From the NCBI RefSeq assembly GCF_001570525.1, contig NZ_BBXC01000009.1, forward strand, positions 302,363 through 366,362: a stretch of DNA of 64,000 bases, given 5' to 3'. The notes beneath the pieces are model-generated. The model was not told the DNA's origin. It ran no database searches and worked only from the letters and a program-made list of their open reading frames with translations. This document shows positions 44,987 through 54,942 of this stretch, piece after piece. Source of the stretch: Herbidospora sakaeratensis (GTDB taxonomy: Bacteria > Actinomycetota > Actinomycetes > Streptosporangiales > Streptosporangiaceae). Position numbers and translations under genes: made by a program. Positions within the stretch are counted from its first letter, which is position 1, and every line of letters begins with the position of its first letter.

Positions 44987-46966
44987 ATGAGTGAGCTGGA
45001 GAGCCTGCGGCGGGCGCTGGCACAGGCGGTCGAGAAGGCCGAGGGCGCCGCCGAACTGGCCCGTCTGCTCGCCGACTACCAGGCCCGGCTGGACGAGGCC
45101 GCCCGCACCGAGGCCGAGGCCCTCACCCGGGCCCGCGACGCCGAGACGGCCCGCAAGGCGGCCGAGAAGCAGGCCGACCGCCAGATCACCCAGCTCGCCA
45201 AGCAACTGGCCGAGCAGAAGTACCAGACCGCGGTGGCCGAGTGGAAGCTGGCCAAGCTCCAGGGCAACCGCTGGATCAAGATAGGGGAGGCCGTCCAGGC
45301 CAAGAAGCCCGGTTCGGTGGCCCGCGCGGTGCGGGCCTCCTCCCCGAACGCGGGCAAGGCCCCCAAGCGCACCGACTTCCCGGTCGAGAAGCCCGCCGTC
45401 CCGGAGAAGCCGGCCGCCGAGAAGGCGCCGCCGGTCGAGCCCGACCCCCGCGCCCCCCTGTTCTCCACGCCCCTCACGGAGTACTTCGCCGTGCCGAAGG
45501 GGCCGCTGACCCGGCCGTACATGACGGTCGCGGCGATCGTCGACCGGCGCACCGAGGCCCTGCTCCGCTACGAATGGCGGCAGGTCACCAACTTCGGCCC
45601 CGACGACTGGCCGAAGATGCTCGACGCCTACCGGCCCTCGATGTTGTTCGTCGAGTCGGTGCACGCCGGGCCGCGCCAGGGCAACGGCGGGCGCTGGCTC
45701 GACTCGATGGCGGGCAGGGACCGGGCGCTGCGCGACCTGGTGGAGGCGTGCAAGAAACGCGGGATCAAGACCGTCTTCTGGCACTCCGGCGGCTCGGTCG
45801 GCAAGGCGGTCCCGGTCGCCGAGCTGTTCGACCTGGTGCTGGCCACCACCGAGCAGCGGGCCCGCGAGTGGCGGGCGGCGCTGCGGCACGACCGCGTCCT
45901 GGTGCTGCCGCACAGCGTGCAGCCCCGGGTGCACAACACCTTCCGCGCCGAGGGCGGCCGGACCGGGGGCGTGGCCACGCTCGGCACGGCCGAGGGCGGC
46001 GGCCCGCTGCCCGCCCAGGGCGACGACAAGACCAGCTACGACGACTTCCTGACCGCCGTGCGCAGGGTCGAGGTGGTCGTCGCCGGGCCCGACGCGAGCG
46101 ACCGCGAGATCGCCGAGATCGAGGCGTGCGGCACCCCGGTCGTCGCCACCGGCGCGGCCGAGCTCGCCGCCGACCCGCAGGAGCGCGACCGCCGGGCCCA
46201 CCTGGCCTGGCGGGCGACCGTCCCGGTCACCGCCCGGCTGGAGCCGGTGTTCTCCGCCGCCGGCCTGCCCGACGTGCGCAACACCCAGGTGGTGACGGCG
46301 CTGGTGGCCGTACGCGACCAGATGGAGCTCGACCAGGCGATCACCCAGGTCGTCGGCCAGCGCCGGCGGCCCGACCAGCTGGTCGTGGTGGCCGAGGGCG
46401 TCGACGCGGGGGTGGTCGAGAAGACGGCCCGGCAGGCCATCGGGGCCCGCGAGGAGGGCTACAACAAGGGCGTGCTGCCCGAGCTGGTGGTCCGGACCAC
46501 GCGGATGTCGACCCGGGGGGCCGCGCTGGCCCGCGCGCTGCTGCTGGCCGACGGCGACTACGTGGCCGTGATCGACCCGCGCGACCTCTACGGCGAGCAC
46601 TACCTGGCCGACTCGCTGCGCCGGTTCGCCGAGGTCGAGACCGAGATCGTCGGCAAGGCCGCGTTCTACGCCCACGCGGCCGGGGCGACCCTGCTGCGCC
46701 AGCCCGACGCCGAGTTCCGCTTCCTGCCCGAGCTCGGCGGCGGCACCATCGTGTCCCGCCGGTCGGTGCTGGTCGACCTCGGCATCGCCGACCTCAGCGA
46801 GGAGTGGGACGAGACGCTGATGCGGCAGTGCCGCTCCGGCGGGATCCGGGTCTACTCGGGCGACCGCTTCTCCTACGTGTGCGTGCGCGCCCGCGCGGAG
46901 GGCCGCCTGTTCGGCTCAGCTCGTCTGGAGGGGTACGTCCCCGCCGGTCCCCTCGCCCTGATCTAG
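44987..46966 (+). CDS. Glycosyltransferase with N-terminal coiled coil, CgeB-like centre and GT-A-like end
   Basis: 659 aa. A long alanine-rich coiled coil occupies ~1-90, a Lys/Pro linker (~110-155) follows, then a CgeB-like glycosyltransferase region (SMLFVESVHAGPRQGNGGRW, LVEACKKRGIKTVFWHS, LVLATTEQRAREW) and a GT-A-like C-terminus (TALVAVRDQMELDQAITQV, VAVIDPRDLYGEHYLADSL). Probably a cytoplasmic or membrane-peripheral transferase building a surface glycan. The last 51 bases overlap the PP2C gene on the other strand. ATG preceded by GGAGGAG. Confidence 0.75.
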   Translation: MSELESLRRALAQAVEKAEGAAELARLLADYQARLDEAARTEAEALTRARDAETARKAAEKQADRQITQLAKQLAEQKYQTAVAEWKLAKLQGNRWIKIGEAVQAKKPGSVARAVRASSPNAGKAPKRTDFPVEKPAVPEKPAAEKAPPVEPDPRAPLFSTPLTEYFAVPKGPLTRPYMTVAAIVDRRTEALLRYEWRQVTNFGPDDWPKMLDAYRPSMLFVESVHAGPRQGNGGRWLDSMAGRDRALRDLVEACKKRGIKTVFWHSGGSVGKAVPVAELFDLVLATTEQRAREWRAALRHDRVLVLPHSVQPRVHNTFRAEGGRTGGVATLGTAEGGGPLPAQGDDKTSYDDFLTAVRRVEVVVAGPDASDREIAEIEACGTPVVATGAAELAADPQERDRRAHLAWRATVPVTARLEPVFSAAGLPDVRNTQVVTALVAVRDQMELDQAITQVVGQRRRPDQLVVVAEGVDAGVVEKTARQAIGAREEGYNKGVLPELVVRTTRMSTRGAALARALLLADGDYVAVIDPRDLYGEHYLADSLRRFAEVETEIVGKAAFYAHAAGATLLRQPDAEFRFLPELGGGTIVSRRSVLVDLGIADLSEEWDETLMRQCRSGGIRVYSGDRFSYVCVRARAEGRLFGSARLEGYVPAGPLALI

Positions 46967-47740
46967 CCCTTGATCGGCCGACGCCGACCCGACCATGATG
47001 GGATGTCCGTCGCCGTGCCCGCCCGCCACGACGTCGGCCACGACACAGGTGATGTTGTCGGGGCCGCCGCCCCGGTTGGCCAGGTCGACGAGGGTCGTGA
47101 CCAGCTGGTCGAGGTCGGCGACGGAGGTGAGCAACTCGTGCAGCGTCTCGGGCGACACCACGCCCGCCAGGCCGTCGGAGCACAGCAGGTAGCGGTCGCC
47201 CGCGAAGGCGGCCCGGTGCGACACGTCGGGGCTCACGTTGCCGGTGCTCTCCAGGGCCCGCATCAGCATCGACCGGCGCGGGTGCTCGGCCGCCTGCTCG
47301 GGGGTCATCCGGCCGTCGTCGACGAGCGACTGCACCAGCGTGTGGTCGTGGGTGATCTGGTAGAGCACGCCGTCGCGCAGCATGTAGCCGCGCGAGTCGC
47401 CCACGTGGGCCAGGGCGAAGCCGCTGCCGTCCCACAACATCGCGGTCAGGGTGGTGCCCATGCCGTTGAGCGCCGGGTTGGCGTCGGCCATGCCCTTCAG
47501 GGTCTGCGCCGCCTGCTGGATGGCGCCTTCGAGCGCGACCACGGGGTCGCCGTCGAGGTGGGCGCCGGACAGCACGCGGATCGCGGTGGCGCTGGCCACC
47601 TGGCCGTAGTTGTGGCCGCCCATGCCGTCGGCGACGACCAGCAGGCGGGAGGAGGCGTAGGCGGCGTCCTCGTTCTCCGGGCGGCGCTGGCCGACGTCGG
47701 AACGGGCGGCGTACCGGAGGCTCAGCGTGCTGTGGTTCAT
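46916..47740 (-). CDS. PP2C-family Ser/Thr protein phosphatase
   Basis: 274 aa from ATG at 47740; an upstream in-frame GTG at 47773 is possible. Metal motifs: PENEDAAY (Asp25), VVADGMGGHNYGQVAS (Asp38), LCSDGLAGVVS and GGGPDNITCVVAD. It dephosphorylates Ser/Thr proteins and would oppose the kinase at 49580. No membrane segment is present, so it is cytoplasmic. Its 3' end overlaps the glycosyltransferase gene by 51 nt, and it diverges from the methylase gene over a 61-bp gap that contains CACTTCACAAGTG. Confidence 0.93.
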   Translation of the reverse strand: MNHSTLSLRYAARSDVGQRRPENEDAAYASSRLLVVADGMGGHNYGQVASATAIRVLSGAHLDGDPVVALEGAIQQAAQTLKGMADANPALNGMGTTLTAMLWDGSGFALAHVGDSRGYMLRDGVLYQITHDHTLVQSLVDDGRMTPEQAAEHPRRSMLMRALESTGNVSPDVSHRAAFAGDRYLLCSDGLAGVVSPETLHELLTSVADLDQLVTTLVDLANRGGGPDNITCVVADVVAGGHGDGHPIMVGSASADQGLDQGEGTGGDVPLQTS

Positions 47741-47801
47741 GTCCACAGTAAAACATTGGTTGAAGCACTTCACAAGTGGACGCTTCGTGTAGAGTAACCA
47801 C

Positions 47802-49520
47802 GTGACTTACGTGAACGCCGGTGACATCGCCCGCCTCGCCGACGTCGGCCGGGCCGCGGTGTCCAACTGGCGTCGCCGTCACGACGACTTCCCCCAGCCG
47901 GTCGGCGGAACCGCCGCCAGCCCGCTGTTCTCGCTGACCGAGGTCGAGGAATGGCTGCGCCGCAACGGCAAGCCGTTCTCGTTGTCGGCCGCCGACCTGG
48001 CCTGGCAGCGTCTCCGGGCCAGCGGCGATGACCTGAGGCTAGGGGAGCTGGTGGCGGCCGCGGGCGATTTCCTCGAAGGGCGTCCGTCGGCGTTGCCCCG
48101 CGAGGTCACCCAGCTGGTCGCCGGGCTGGCCGAGGAGCGCGGGCGGCTGGAGGCCTTCGAGTTCCTCTGCGAGCGCTACGTCGAGGCCCACTCGCGCCAG
48201 CTCGCGATCACCCCGCCCGACCTGGCCGACCTGATGGTGCGCCTGTCGGGCGGCGGGGTGCTGCTCGACCCCGCCTGCGGCCTGGGCACCCTGCTGCTGA
48301 CGGCGAAGGCCGCGCGGGCCCAGGACGTCTCCGGTTCCGCGGCCCGGATCGCGGCCACGCGGCTGCGGATGCGGGGGGTGGCGGCGACCGTGCGGACCGG
48401 CGACTCGCTGCGGGCCAACGGGCTGCCCGGCGGCGCCGACGCGGTCGTCTGCGACCCGCCCTTCAACGAGCGGACCTGGGGCTACGAGGAGCTCACCGCC
48501 GACCCGCGCTGGGAGTTCGGCCTGCCGCCGCGCGGCGAGCCCGAGCTCGCCTGGGTGCAACACTGCCTCAGCCGGGTCCGGGCCGGGGGCACGGTGACCG
48601 TCCTGATGCCGCCCGCCGCCGCCGCCCGCCGCCCCGGCCGCCGGATCCGGTCGAACCTGCTGCGCGCCGGGGTGCTCCGGGCCGTGATCGCGGCCGGTTC
48701 CAGCGACATCTGGTTGCTGCGCCGCCCCGAGCCGGGGGAGCGCACCCCGTCGCGCGTGCTGCTCTACGACGCCGCCGGAGACCTCGCCACGGTCGAACCG
48801 GCCTGGCGCGACTTCCAGGAGTCCGGCCGGGGCGGCACCGAGGTCATCGACCTGCTCGACGACGAGGTCGACGTCAGCCCGCTGCGGTTCGGCGGCGCGG
48901 CCGGGCCGCCCGACTACTCCGGCGCCCGCGACCGCTTCACCGCCGCCGTCGACGGCCTGGCCGGCGCCCTGCCCGACCTCGCGCCCGCCGACCCGCCGCG
49001 CGACCCGCCGATGACGACCATCGCCGAACTGGCCCGGGGCGGCTCGGTGGCCATCCACCACTCCTCGGCCCGCCTCGGCTCGGGCGACCAGCCGGTCCTG
49101 ACGGCCGACGACCTGGCCGGGGGCGGCCCGCCCACCGGCTGGGCCGAGCCCGGCCCCGCGCTGGTCATGATCGAGCCGGGTGACGTGGTCGCCACCCCGA
49201 CCGGCCTGGTCCGCGTCGTGACCGAGATCGGCTGGGCCCTCGGCCCCCAGCTCACCCTCTACCGGGTCGACCCGGCCCGCCTGGACGCCGACTTCCTGGC
49301 CGGCTTCCTGCGCGCCGGTTCGAGCCTGTCGCGCGGCGCCAGCCGCCTCGACGCCCGCCGCACCAAGGTCCCCCGGCTGCCGCTGGCCGAACAGCGCGAA
49401 TACGGCCGCTCCTTCCGCCGCCTCGCCGACCTCGACACCGCCCTCCACGAGGCCGGGAGAAGAGGCCAGGAACTCATCCGCCTGGCTCTGGACGGTTTGG
49501 CGGCCGGACATCTGCGATGA
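47802..49520 (+). CDS. N6-DNA methylase with N-terminal HTH and C-terminal specificity-like region
   Basis: 572 aa. Residues 6-30 form an HTH (NAGDIARLADVGRAAVSNWRRRH), a DNA- or partner-binding add-on. Methylase motif I is LLDPACGLGTLLL (156-166; usual DPACGSGG) and motif IV is VVCDPPFNERTWG (Asp218-Pro-Pro-Phe, DPPF instead of NPPF/Y). The TPPDLADLMVRLSG helix before motif I matches HsdM-type methylases. The C-terminal third (GDVVATPTGLVRVV, LPLAEQREYGRSFR) resembles a type I specificity (TRD-like) module. No restriction subunit adjoins. Methylates adenine, presumably in a sequence set by the C-terminal region. Genes on both sides encode kinase and phosphatase. Confidence 0.85.
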   Translation: MTYVNAGDIARLADVGRAAVSNWRRRHDDFPQPVGGTAASPLFSLTEVEEWLRRNGKPFSLSAADLAWQRLRASGDDLRLGELVAAAGDFLEGRPSALPREVTQLVAGLAEERGRLEAFEFLCERYVEAHSRQLAITPPDLADLMVRLSGGGVLLDPACGLGTLLLTAKAARAQDVSGSAARIAATRLRMRGVAATVRTGDSLRANGLPGGADAVVCDPPFNERTWGYEELTADPRWEFGLPPRGEPELAWVQHCLSRVRAGGTVTVLMPPAAAARRPGRRIRSNLLRAGVLRAVIAAGSSDIWLLRRPEPGERTPSRVLLYDAAGDLATVEPAWRDFQESGRGGTEVIDLLDDEVDVSPLRFGGAAGPPDYSGARDRFTAAVDGLAGALPDLAPADPPRDPPMTTIAELARGGSVAIHHSSARLGSGDQPVLTADDLAGGGPPTGWAEPGPALVMIEPGDVVATPTGLVRVVTEIGWALGPQLTLYRVDPARLDADFLAGFLRAGSSLSRGASRLDARRTKVPRLPLAEQREYGRSFRRLADLDTALHEAGRRGQELIRLALDGLAAGHLR

Positions 49521-49572
49521 AAGCGGGAGCCGGGGTGGAGACGGGTCGACCGGCCGTACATCTGCAATAAAG
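49501..49572 (+). repeat. Imperfect 50-bp-spaced direct repeat at the methylase end
   Basis: CGGCCGGACATCTGCGATGAAAG (two ~20-base pieces at 49501-49523) is repeated as CGGCCGTACATCTGCAATAA (49551-49570) with three mismatches in 21 positions. The first copy includes the methylase stop codon; the second lies just upstream of the kinase start. Confidence 0.6.
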
Positions 49573-49579
49573 TTGCGGC

Positions 49580-50467
49580 ATGGTCATCGGTGACCGCTAT
49601 GAACTGGACGACCTCCCGCTCGGCCAGGGCGGGATGGGCGCCGTCTACGGCGGCCACGACAGACATCTCGACCGCAAGGTGGCGGTCAAGTTCCTCCGTC
49701 CCCCCGGCGGGCCCGACCGGGAGCTGGAGCGCCGGTTCATCCGCGAGGCCCGCATCCTGGCCCGGCTCGACCATCCCGGCGCGCCGGTGCTCTACGACTT
49801 CGGCACCCACGAGCAGCGGCTCTTCCAGGTGATGCAGTTCATCGAGGGCGTCACCGTGGCCGACGTGGTCAGCGAGCACGGGCCGCTGCCGGTCCCGTGG
49901 GCCGCCGCCATCGCCGCCCAGGCGTGCGCCGTGTTGTCGGCCGCCCACACGTTGTCGATCTGCCACCGCGACCTCAAGCCGACCAACCTGATGCTCTGCC
50001 CCGACGGCACGGTCAAGGTGCTCGACTTCGGCCTGGCCATCCTGCGCGAGGCCGACGCCGGGCAGTTCACCCGGACCGGCCAGATCCTCGGCACCCCCGC
50101 CTACATGGCCCCCGAGCAGATCAAACGCGGCGTGGCCGACCCCCGCAGCGACCTCTACGCCCTCGGCTGCGTGCTGCACGAGATGCTCACCGGCCGCCAG
50201 CTCTTCACCGGCCCGACCGACTACGCCGTCTACGAACGCCAGGTCAAGGAGCGCCCGCCGAGGGTGCGCGACATCCCGGCCGGGCTGGCGGACCTGGTCG
50301 GGTCGCTGCTGGAGAAGTCGCCCGACCAGCGCCCGCAGACCGCCGACGCGCTCTACACCGACCTCCAGCGCTACGCCGTCGACCTCCCGGCCCTGCCGGG
50401 CTTCCTGACGGCCGCGGTCGCGCCGACCCGGATGTACGCTCGCGTGGTCGGCCGGGTGCCCGGATGA
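49580..50467 (+). CDS. Soluble Ser/Thr protein kinase
   Basis: 295 aa. Kinase domain with the Gly loop GQGGMG (15-20), VAVK (Lys37), complete catalytic loop HRDLKPTN (129-136), DFG at 149-151, and APEQI. No TM segment and no exterior domain follow, so it is cytoplasmic, unlike the kinase at 14287. It starts 59 bp after the methylase stop and its stop overlaps the next gene as ATGA. The opposing PP2C gene lies 1.8 kb away on the divergent side of the methylase, so it may regulate the methylase or a DNA-bound complex. Confidence 0.93.
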   Translation: MVIGDRYELDDLPLGQGGMGAVYGGHDRHLDRKVAVKFLRPPGGPDRELERRFIREARILARLDHPGAPVLYDFGTHEQRLFQVMQFIEGVTVADVVSEHGPLPVPWAAAIAAQACAVLSAAHTLSICHRDLKPTNLMLCPDGTVKVLDFGLAILREADAGQFTRTGQILGTPAYMAPEQIKRGVADPRSDLYALGCVLHEMLTGRQLFTGPTDYAVYERQVKERPPRVRDIPAGLADLVGSLLEKSPDQRPQTADALYTDLQRYAVDLPALPGFLTAAVAPTRMYARVVGRVPG

Positions 50468-50952
50468 TCCCGGTCGGCGACTGGGCGAACGAGGCGACCT
50501 ACCTCGTCCGGGGCGAGCTGGTCATCGGGGAGTATCCCTGGGACCAAATCGCCAAGGTTCCGGAAAACCTGGCCGCCGAGACCTGGCCCGACTTCCCCCG
50601 CACCTGGGCCAACCCCGGTTTCGTGGTCCGCTACGCGTACGCCCGCGCCCGCTGGGCGCATCGGTGGGCGGAGGGCGCCGACCCCGAGTGGGAGTCGCTG
50701 CCCGCCGAGTGGAGGGCCGTGGTGCGGCTGCTCGCGGAACTGCCCAGTCGTTCGCGGAGCCGTAAAGGAAAGTGGAGGACCTTCGCCGAGCACCTCGCCG
50801 CGGGTTATCACGACGCGTTCGAGGCCGCGAACCCCCTGCCAAGGGGGGACGCGGCCTTCACGGGAACGTCGGCGGCGCGGGTCGCGACGGGCGACGCGGT
50901 CGCGGCGGTGCTCGCGGCGATCAGCGCGGAGCGGTTGCCCGAGAGGATCTAG
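50464..50952 (+). CDS. Unknown protein coupled to the kinase
   Basis: 162 aa from ATG at 50464, overlapping the kinase stop by four bases. An acidic-to-aromatic N-terminus (VIPVGDWANEATYLVRGELVIGEYPWDQI) is followed by a helical region with a run of Trp/Arg (RYAYARARWAHRWAEG, PAEWRAVVRLLAELPSRSRSR). No recognised family, no TM. Its coupling to the kinase and the methylase makes it a candidate adaptor or substrate. Confidence 0.75.
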   Translation: MIPVGDWANEATYLVRGELVIGEYPWDQIAKVPENLAAETWPDFPRTWANPGFVVRYAYARARWAHRWAEGADPEWESLPAEWRAVVRLLAELPSRSRSRKGKWRTFAEHLAAGYHDAFEAANPLPRGDAAFTGTSAARVATGDAVAAVLAAISAERLPERI

Positions 50953-52446: not shown

Positions 52447-53732
52447 GTAAACCCGTCAAAGTGGCGCTCCTGGGCTGCGGCGTCGTCGGCTCCCAGGTCG
52501 CCCGCCTGCTCCACGAGCAGGCCGACGACCTGGCCGCCCGGGTGGGCGCGCCGCTGGAGCTCGCCGGGGTGGCCGTCCGCAAGATGAGCCGCAAACGCGA
52601 CGTCGACCTCGACCCCGCGCTGCTCACCACCGACGCCCACGCCCTGGTCACCCGCCCCGACGTCGACGTCGTCGTCGAGGTGATCGGCGGCATCGAGCCC
52701 GCCCGCAGCCTGATCCTGGCCGCCATGGCCGAGGGCAAGTCGATCGTCTCGGCCAACAAGGCCCTGCTCGCCGAAGACGGCGCGACCCTCCACGCCGCCA
52801 ACCAGGCCGACCTCTACTTCGAGGCCGCCGTCGCCGGGGCGATCCCGCTGATCCGCCCGCTGCGCGAGTCGCTGGCCGGCGACCGGGTCCACCGGGTGCT
52901 CGGCATCGTCAACGGCACGACCAACTACATCCTCGACAAAATGGACTCCACCGGCGCCTCGTTCACCGACGCGCTGGAGGAGGCCCAGTCGCTCGGCTAC
53001 GCCGAGGCCGACCCGACCGCCGACATCGAGGGCTTCGACGCCGCCGCCAAGGCCGCCATCCTGGCCGGGATCGCCTTCCACAGCCGGGTCACCGCGGCCG
53101 ACGTCCACCGCGAGGGCATCACCGAGGTGTCCGCCTCCGACGTCGCCTCGGCCAAGGCCATGGGCTACGTGATCAAGCTGCTGGCGATCTGCGCCCGCTC
53201 CGACGACGGCCGGACCATCGGCGTGCGGGTGCATCCCGCGATGATCCCGCGCACCCACCCGCTGGCCGGGGTCCGCGAGGCGTACAACGCCGTGTTCGTC
53301 GAGGCCGAGTCGGCGGGCCGCCTCATGTTCTACGGCGCCGGCGCCGGTGGCGCGCCGACCGCCTCCGCGGTCCTGGGCGACATCGTCGCGGTCGCGCGCA
53401 ACCGCATCGCCGGCACCCGGGGTCCGTCCGAGTCCGTGTACGCCGACCTGGCCGTCCACCCCATGGGCGAGACGGTGACCCGCTACCACGTGTCGCTCGA
53501 CGTCGCCGACAAGCCGGGCGTGCTCGCGACCGTGGCCGAGATGTTCTCCCGCCACGACGTGTCGATCCAGACCGTCCGCCAGGAGGGCCGGGGCGACGAC
53601 GCCCAGCTCGTGCTGGTCACCCACCGGGCCTCCGACGCGGCGTTGTCGTCGACGGTCGAGGGCCTGCGCGAGCTCGACATCGTGCGCGCGGTGGCCAGCG
53701 TCATGCGGGTCGAAGGCGACGAAGCGCCTTAA
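52443..53732 (+). CDS. hom: Homoserine dehydrogenase
   Basis: 429 aa. Rossmann motif [17 protein letters not shown], catalytic domain with [14 protein letters not shown] and [21 protein letters not shown], and a C-terminal ACT domain (~345-425, [21 protein letters not shown]) for threonine feedback. Reduces aspartate semialdehyde to homoserine. GTG at 52443 overlaps lysA by four bases. Its last 32 bases overlap the convergent phosphotransferase gene. Confidence 0.97.
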
Positions 53733-54942
53733 CCGCTTCGACCAGCGCTTCTTCGGGGTCGCCGGCGTGATAGCGGCGTTCGGAGGGCTCGATGCCGTCC
53801 AGGAACTCCTGGTACCGCACGGCCTGCCCGAGCGCCGCCAGCGGCGCGGCGACCTCCAGCGCCCGTCGCGGGTCTGCCCCCGGCAGCGACCAGGCGTCGA
53901 CCCATGCCTCGGCGTCGCCGGTCCACTCCTTCAGCCGCAACCCGTCGGCGGCCGGATGCCCGACATGCGCGTCGGCGAAGTCCAGCACCACGGCCGGGCC
54001 GCCGGGCACCGCTCGCCAGTTGCCCGGGTGGAAATCTCCATGAACCAGCGTGTACGGAATCCCGCAGGCCGCCAGCTCCTCCTCCAGGGCGGGAACCCGC
54101 TCCAGCAGTTCGTCTGACCCGGGGACGTGGGGGAGCCGCCCGGTGGCGGCGAGCATGCTCCGCCGATCGGTCAGCCCCGGCGGGGCCTGCCGTGAGCCGA
54201 TCGCCTCGGGCCTGGACGCCTGCATTCCGGTGCTGATCTCCTGCTGGGCCCGCGCGAACCGGCGGACCGTCTCCCGCACCAGGCCGGGGGCCGCCTTCCA
54301 GCAGTCCTGGCCCGGGATGTGCTCCAGCAACATCCAGCCACGGGCGGGATCAGCGCCCAGCACCGTGGGGACCAGCGTGGGATCCACCTCGGCCAGGGCG
54401 GCGATGATCGACGCCTCGGGGGCGGCGAACGGGGGAGTGGTCTTCAGCCAGGCGTTGACGTTCGGCAGGTGGAAGAGCCCGGCCAGGTTCCAGGTCTTGA
54501 CCTGCCGGATCTCGCTCGGCCCCGTGATGGCCAGCGCCCAGTCGAGGGCCGCGCGCAGCCCTTCACGGGTGGCCCACGATGCCCGGAGCGGTTCCTGGTT
54601 CCAAAGGCGACTCCGCACCTCGGCCGGAACGCCGGACATCGCGCCGCCGACGGAGTGTTCCCTCGACTCAGCGGCGGCCTTGAAGCGGTTCGGCGGGTTC
54701 GGGGGCTGGTGGGCCGGGGGCTCCTCCAGGAGTTCCGCATGATAGGTCGCGTGGCCGTCGCGCATCATGGCGCCGCCCTGCACGTCGAGCAGTCGCAGGA
54801 CCACGACCGGCGCGCCCGCTTCGCCGGAGAGCCAGGCCGTCACGGGCGCGACGTCGTTCCACCACGGGGAGGGCATGTCGGCCGGGCCGAACCGGCCGTG
54901 CACCCTGTCGCCGCTGGTCACCACGGCGCTCGCCTGACGCAT
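53701..54942 (-). CDS. APH-family phosphotransferase
   Basis: 413 aa from ATG at 54942. The C-terminal kinase-like fold has the Brenner-type motif YTLVHGDFHPGNW and the metal Asp in VVLDFADAHVGHPAADGLRL. The N-terminal ~150 residues are not assigned. This family phosphorylates antibiotics or small hydroxyl compounds; actinomycete members with ALDWALAITGPSEIRQVKTWN are usually of unknown substrate. Converges on hom with a 32-bp overlap. Confidence 0.85.
   Translation of the reverse strand: MRQASAVVTSGDRVHGRFGPADMPSPWWNDVAPVTAWLSGEAGAPVVVLRLLDVQGGAMMRDGHATYHAELLEEPPAHQPPNPPNRFKAAAESREHSVGGAMSGVPAEVRSRLWNQEPLRASWATREGLRAALDWALAITGPSEIRQVKTWNLAGLFHLPNVNAWLKTTPPFAAPEASIIAALAEVDPTLVPTVLGADPARGWMLLEHIPGQDCWKAAPGLVRETVRRFARAQQEISTGMQASRPEAIGSRQAPPGLTDRRSMLAATGRLPHVPGSDELLERVPALEEELAACGIPYTLVHGDFHPGNWRAVPGGPAVVLDFADAHVGHPAADGLRLKEWTGDAEAWVDAWSLPGADPRRALEVAAPLAALGQAVRYQEFLDGIEPSERRYHAGDPEEALVEAVKALRRLRPA

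Follow-up and report, generated by a model that had tools for sequence, protein, structure and literature searches.

What does a DNA adenine methylase do beside a Ser/Thr phosphatase and a Ser/Thr kinase, and do the three genes belong together at all? The question is raised by a locus of Herbidospora sakaeratensis (family Streptosporangiaceae), which lies in a stretch of 64,000 nucleotides of contig NZ_BBXC01000009.1, called the window below, from a genome of 8.6 Mb. Here a gene for a PP2C phosphatase diverges from a gene for a methylase with an N-terminal helix–turn–helix (HTH) domain, and a gene for a soluble kinase follows the methylase. We show that this trio is kept together across a part of Streptosporangiaceae, with a conserved DNA box between its divergent genes. 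The reading that we prefer, and to which we give a probability of about one in two, is that of an autoregulated core switch in which the kinase and the phosphatase would control an orphan DNA adenine methylase. The features of the trio in the window are as follows.

46916-47740, minus strand: soluble PP2C Ser/Thr phosphatase of the Stp1/PstP type, starting with ATG (a second open start codon, GTG, lies at 47773)
47747-47776, no strand assigned: conserved 30-bp box, AGTAAAnCAyTGGTTGArnnrCTTCACAAG, lying between the PP2C and methylase genes
47759-47773, no strand assigned: putative operator core GTTGA-N5-TTCAC, of the family pattern GTKDA-N5-THMAC
47802-49520, plus strand: HTH-N6-adenine DNA methylase with an HsdS-like half target-recognition domain (TRD), 572 aa
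47802-48074, plus strand: N-terminal HTH domain of the methylase, aa 1-91
48150-48776, plus strand: N6-methylase core of the HsdM type, aa 117-325, from the N6_Mtase match (aa 117-297) and profile matches
48996-49517, plus strand: TRD half with the long helix at the C-terminus, aa 399-572, from the HsdS match and the structure model
49580-50467, plus strand: soluble PknB-class Ser/Thr kinase

We followed the arrangement through 80 loci, the best named among the kinase matches listed, a sample that leans to close kin and in which genes were called with a simple codon-score script that leaves starts rough. The loci come from 12 named genera, all Streptosporangiaceae, from one further strain of that family, from Amycolatopsis xylanica and from a record labelled Nocardia aurea. 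The methylase gene lies immediately 5' of the kinase gene in 80/80 loci, and a divergent PP2C gene adjoins the methylase in all 75 loci where the three positions are visible, a contig end before the PP2C position cutting the other five. An initial annotation of this DNA had described four open reading frames (ORFs) in one cluster, the fourth encoding a 162-aa protein, and had named conserved gene order as its own check; all four ORFs and the divergence are indeed present, and the order is kept for the three genes, whereas the 162-aa gene follows the kinase in only 9 of the 80 loci. When genes up to three positions away from the trio are compared, the 75 loci divide into 7 groups with no flanking gene in common between groups. 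A census with the kinase as query found it in 123 of 297 genomes of the family (E 1e-115), with one copy in each, in 22 of 68 genera and at 69-100% identity; every genome sampled from Herbidospora (7/7) and from a second genus (54/54) carries a single copy, and a scan of 394 genomes of the class (E 1e-105) returned 16 genomes, all of them from the same family. The trio is core and not patchy, yet it marks only part of Streptosporangiaceae, since 46 sampled genera were without the kinase at the family threshold. Among 30 proteins neighbouring the trio in seven genera, 10 of them inside the window, a PADLOC scan matched no nuclease or helicase model and no restriction-enzyme (HsdR) model; four of the 30 match other models (GlgB-like, Csa3-like twice, mad2-like). 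An orphan regulatory adenine methylase would be recognized by conservation, by the lack of a cognate nuclease and by an effect on gene expression; the first two of these traits are found as far as sampled. Two loci bear names from outside Streptosporangiaceae. In Amycolatopsis xylanica (L231) all three genes are present, the operator has diverged, and the trio was probably acquired by transfer; in the record labelled Nocardia aurea (L198) the trio sits on a contig of 8.6 kb between flanks that resemble Nonomuraea, so that a wrong label or contamination is possible.

The sequence between the two divergent genes is conserved in its own right. A 23-bp core of the box has at most two mismatches at its 21 fixed positions in 74 of the 75 trio loci (none in 47, one in 25, two in 2), and seven in Amycolatopsis. 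A second, overlapping sample comprised 21 PP2C-methylase loci, all of which carry the box core, and 37 HTH-methylase rows that lack PP2C and include three fragments, in which no match with fewer than six mismatches occurs on either strand. A 22-bp core is unique in its own genome at up to 3 mismatches. We rejected the possibility that the box is merely PP2C coding sequence, as a stop codon excludes this in 56/75 loci; the PP2C frame is open across the box in 19, Herbidospora included, and in 9 of these a start lies beyond the box. Within the box, a pattern of the GTTGA-N5-TTCAC type is present in 75/75 trio loci, where 0.23 would be expected from flanking DNA and 0.38 from shuffles, in Amycolatopsis as the variant GTGAA-N5-TACAC, and the window holds a single match. 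The wider pattern GTKDA-N5-THMAC was written after the non-trio loci of the methylase family had been inspected, so that its matches in 11 of 35 such loci (expected 0.14) are partly training data. It was then found in 24 of 30 held-out loci (L283-L312) from a second actinomycete family, coded f20, where 0.10 would be expected from shuffles and 0.07 from flanking DNA, the commonest form being GTGAACCGAGTCAAC. The f20 methylase is 70% identical to the window methylase in the HTH and 43% in the TRD. Because the operator persists in f20 while the TRD diverges, the methylase HTH would be the likelier operator binder, and the TRD the less likely one.

The methylase itself is assembled from recognizable parts. 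Pfam assigns N6_Mtase at E 9e-20 (aa 117-297), and HTH_17 on the head at only E 0.23. A family profile of the methylase matches 7vru (E 4e-43) and the EcoR124II HsdM chain 7bst (E 9e-23), and at its C-terminal end reaches the HsdS chains 5ybb_D and 3okg at E ~2e-4, which bears out the specificity-like tail proposed initially. Since the curated hsdM model gives only 14 bits against a cut-off of 243, the protein is not HsdM itself; on these matches it is an HsdM-type core fused to half an HsdS, behind an HTH head. The structure model has a mean pLDDT (predicted local distance difference test) of 87 and a long helix at aa 528-568, and a fold search with it returned PacII and type I methylases first, with modest template-modelling (TM) scores of 0.3-0.4 by query length. 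Across genera the parts are constrained unequally, mean identity falling from 0.76 in the HTH through 0.71 in the methylase core to 0.54 in the TRD, and VGRAAVSNWRRR in the HTH is nearly invariant, non-trio relatives included. In the three genera tested, the ratio of nonsynonymous to synonymous substitution rates (dN/dS) is below 0.33 for every part, with 0.08-0.11 for the HTH and 0.20-0.32 for the TRD (aa 399-530). The TRD is 0.82 identical within genera, i.e. not hypervariable, and its slow change speaks for one fixed target and against an immune arms race. Motif I, DPA[CVA]GxG, is present in 76/76 trio methylases, and motif IV reads DPPF in 72, HPPF in 2, EPPF in 1 and DPPW in 1. Motif IV of a typical HsdM begins with N, and D at this place is used by other adenine methylases; across the relatives of the methylase, D, H, E, V, G, A and S also occur here. 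Further HTH-methylase copies in Herbidospora were seen in 3 of 7 genomes only. Motif IV of the methylase in L092, a locus considered below, is HPPF.

The phosphatase matches PF00481 (E 3e-9) and scores 218.6 bits on NF033484, slightly below the cut-off of 230; its CSDGL motif is present in 76/76 aligned copies, and its remaining motifs are gapped in up to 12 of the 76 rows, probably because start calls are rough. The kinase matches Pkinase (E 2e-46) and no further domain type, retains the catalytic Lys, HRD and DFG in 76/76 aligned copies and, in the window copy, has no strong hydrophobic segment. Mean identity between genera is 0.83 for the kinase and 0.66 for PP2C, and the dN/dS of the kinase is 0.11-0.14 in three genera.

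Is the kinase a chance neighbour of the methylase, or do the two share a history? We built a midpoint-rooted tree of 73 kinases, counting as a methylase neighbour any kinase up to two genes away, and took as background 19 of the 42 other kinase matches in the window's own genome. The 16 trio kinases form one clade (100/99), which nests in a 48-row clade (98/91) of HTH-methylase neighbours made up of the trio, 18 f20 kinases, 12 of the 15 non-trio neighbours and 2 further f20 kinases; the non-trio neighbours outside it are L093, L117 and L127. Background kinases fall outside even a wider 55-row group in 17 of 19 cases, two are inside it, and one of these two, L271, itself lies about 0.7 kb from an HTH-methylase. 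Forcing 46 linked kinases together was not rejected (p 0.42), a result compatible with one origin rather than proof of it. In the methylase tree, the trio and the PP2C-only rows form one clade (99), beside a group that holds the methylases of type I restriction–modification (RM) systems. As kinase and methylase trees agree, the partnership looks older than the trio, and most methylase-linked kinases appear to have a common ancestry. In L117 and L127, the HTH-methylase is followed by very long kinases of at least 1812 and at least 2007 aa, cut at the locus end.

An order kept in 7 flank groups, a single copy, purifying selection and a unique box together argue for a dedicated switch. In such a switch, the HTH head of the methylase would bind the conserved box in the promoter common to the methylase and PP2C genes and thereby set the level of both transcripts, while its HsdM–HsdS-half body would recognize, and most likely methylate, an adenine site elsewhere. 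The kinase would phosphorylate the methylase or a common partner, PP2C would reset this phosphorylation, and a cell signal could thus be turned into altered methylation or transcription. Five elements of this scheme are inferences: that the HTH binds the operator, that the genes are transcribed together, that the enzymes are active, what the kinase phosphorylates and which signal is read. A DNA-modification module under reversible phosphorylation had been suggested in the initial annotation, and as a dedicated, conserved unit it remains the best hypothesis. Several observations weigh against it. Two of 21 PP2C-methylase loci (L092 and L109) carry the box with no adjoining trio kinase, and since they keep PP2C, box and methylase only, the kinase can evidently be lost. 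The 24 operator matches in f20 are close kin and not 24 independent cases, and a simple sigma-70 consensus scan of 47600-47900 found no promoter-like site. The genome has 43 kinase matches and two PP2C matches, so that PP2C may serve many kinases. Finally, motif IV opens with D in the trio, with H or E replacing it in 3 of 76 methylases, and in f20 its first residue is H in 19/19 kinase-cluster members and N in the other 11; a motif IV that is non-N and drifting leaves methylase activity less than assured.

This last point leads to a rather unlikely alternative, in which the methylase is a pseudo-enzyme that writes no methyl group and acts as a phosphorylation-controlled DNA-bound reader, or as an S-adenosylmethionine sensor and transcription regulator. 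The drift of motif IV, together with an HTH that is the best conserved part of the protein, would suit such a role, and N at the first position of the motif is found in 6 of the 50 rows linked to a kinase, compared with 17 of the other 30. However, motif I is intact throughout the trio and DPPF nearly so, D serves other adenine methylases, and the link between kinase pairing and the loss of N, suggestive in raw counts, does not reach significance when kinship is taken into account (median p 0.5); we have therefore dropped the idea that pairing with a kinase drives that loss. It is unlikely, in turn, that the trio is a stand-alone immune module, with the methylase marking or sensing DNA, the kinase as abortive-infection effector and PP2C as antidote. 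A module of this kind would not be expected as a single copy in all the genomes sampled from two genera, with a TRD that is not diversifying and with 30 scanned neighbours free of nuclease and helicase models, or as the property of a single family among the 394 genomes of the class, Amycolatopsis xylanica and the Nocardia record coming from the locus scan. The kinase does nest among neighbours of HTH-methylases, some of which lie in type I RM or DISARM-like clusters (DISARM, defence island system associated with restriction–modification), and its best PADLOC models are PD-T4-6, with MAD6 scoring too. The phage-sensing role raised initially is thus weakened by the copy number and by purifying selection on the TRD, and keeps some ground in the kin found in defence clusters.

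Unlikely too, in our view, is a mere sharing of a promoter region between an orphan methylase and Ser/Thr signalling genes of the ordinary kind, with PP2C as a second general phosphatase for the many kinases. The imbalance between kinases and phosphatases in the genome fits this, as does the only other PP2C match there (at E 1e-10), which is 64% identical and sits in a cluster with two kinases; against it, the three genes stay together through all 7 flank groups, and the kinase clade consists of HTH-methylase neighbours. The likeness to BREX type 2 (bacteriophage exclusion; Pgl, phage growth limitation) to which the initial annotation had pointed did not survive. Kinase and adenine methylase do occur together, but the kinase reaches 44 bits on the PglW model NF033442 with its cut-off of 990, PF08665 (PglZ) has 0 matches in the own genome (controls were positive in 2/14), and PglX is about twice the size of the trio methylase. 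A reduced system of this type is refuted on the defining parts tested, the PglW score and the absence of PglZ, and we give it practically no chance.

How does the trio relate to systems already described? The closest relatives are methylase–kinase pairs in immune surroundings. Pairs in type I RM loci (L076, L082, L083) and in DISARM-like loci (L101, with L100 and L102 recognized by eye) combine a homologous HTH-methylase, 46-51% identical, with a kinase of the trio's clade, which adjoins the methylase or lies one gene away. They differ in that the scanned pairs stand beside HsdM/HsdR (L082) or DrmA-DrmB-DrmC (L101), their kinases are about 480-510 aa long, no PP2C was called alongside, and the trio box is absent; conversely, no DrmA, DrmB or DrmC model was matched among the 30 scanned trio neighbours. 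The DISARM variant has DrmA-DrmB-DrmC followed by HTH-methylase and a kinase of about 500 aa (L101 scanned; L100, L102 and L114 by eye), and its motif IV is VPPF in L100-L102 and DPPF in L114. In f20, 19 of 30 loci hold a cluster of HTH-methylase, a protein of about 190 aa and kinase that shares operator pattern, HTH and kinase clade with the trio; it differs in the extra gene between methylase and kinase, in another divergent gene that replaces PP2C and in a motif IV of HPPF or HPPY. The middle protein looks membrane-like by eye, an operator such as GTGAACCGAGTCAAC lies upstream, and kinase relatives were found in 100 of 150 genomes (E 1e-95).

Other systems share single traits with the trio. 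CamA is a core orphan adenine methylase of one lineage; it likewise lacks a nuclease and appears in the fold search from rank 18 (TM ~0.3). To our knowledge it is not an HsdM–HsdS-half fusion with an HTH head, and we know of no dedicated kinase or phosphatase for it. The methylation-associated defence system (MADS) unites an HTH protein (Mad1), a methylase (Mad2) and a kinase (Mad6), and its models match weakly in the trio; in a scan that covered the trio and the 30 neighbours, the kinase reached 132 bits where the MAD6 cut-off is 460, and the methylase scored 249 bits on a type I model and 57 on mad2. For BREX-2, DISARM and type I RM, the trio thus lacks a defining feature that we tested, and for MADS its kinase stays below the cut-off. 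A study of TerY-P (PMC11090510) describes a unit of PP2C and Ser/Thr kinase linked to DNA restriction systems; in this triad the kinase carries a fused zinc ribbon, and a von Willebrand factor A (VWA) protein belongs to it as well. The trio differs in carrying a methylase and in a kinase that shows only a kinase domain, in a comparison that for VWA covered five proteins near the trio. For S. roseosporus, another study (PMC9240718) reports a pair of orphan gamma methylases, 718 and 838 aa long. No description of the trio was found in the open-access literature searched, most subscription journals being beyond reach. The components of the trio are known; what is new is the way they are arranged, which is strictly conserved.

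In bacteria, DNA methylases are familiar either as immune marks or as slow epigenetic switches. If a methylase retains a kinase and a phosphatase of its own throughout whole genera, the marking of DNA would be coupled directly to protein phosphorylation. The operator, the three genes and their kin in immune clusters make this link testable, and would offer an example of immune components recruited for core regulation, or of regulatory ones recruited for immunity. More tentatively still, and on balance with less than even confidence, we suggest an actinobacterial class of signalling units, absent from the results of our literature searches, in which an HTH-methylase and a co-evolved kinase lineage would share one operator type, GTKDA-N5-THMAC. 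The pair may serve type I RM or DISARM-like immunity in some genomes, a phosphatase-balanced core switch in Streptosporangiaceae and a common cluster with another middle partner in the second family, and the methylase may have passed from writer to reader in several branches.

The fourth ORF of the initial annotation lies downstream of the kinase.

50464-50952, plus strand: 162-aa protein related to the ArgRS anticodon-binding domain and to NrtL, outside the module, upstream of lysA

The coupling described for it is real in the window, where the ORF overlaps the kinase stop via ATGA, but membership of the cluster does not follow for this ArgRS-like protein next to lysA. The gene was seen after the kinase in 5 Herbidospora and 4 Acrocarpospora loci, with the 4-nt overlap in 5/5 and 1/4 of them, respectively; lysA follows in all 9, and lysA and hom lie downstream in the window. 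The protein has no Pfam match. It matches NF045898 (NrtL, ArgS-related anticodon-binding) at E 7e-7 with 29 bits against a cut-off of 340, over profile positions 203-313 of 327 only, and is shorter than the model; on this score it is related to NrtL, not a full member. A 28-row profile of the protein finds the ArgRS C-termini 2zue and 1iq0, and in a fold search the 13 best matches are all ArgRS entries, the best at only E 0.008. Its narrow spread and the ArgRS match rule it out as a fourth member of the module; the gene probably belongs with the lysA region, and would have been joined to the kinase when the trio settled there.

On the other side of the trio, PP2C overlaps the 3' end of a convergent 659-aa ORF (44987-46966) by 51 bp (46916-46966). 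That ORF has no Pfam match, and an overlap of the same 51-bp type is present in six other Herbidospora loci. Farther downstream, an aminoglycoside phosphotransferase (APH)-like gene at window positions 53701-54942 is 70-83% identical in five other Herbidospora loci, and the two genes that flank it are at least 87% identical in those loci.

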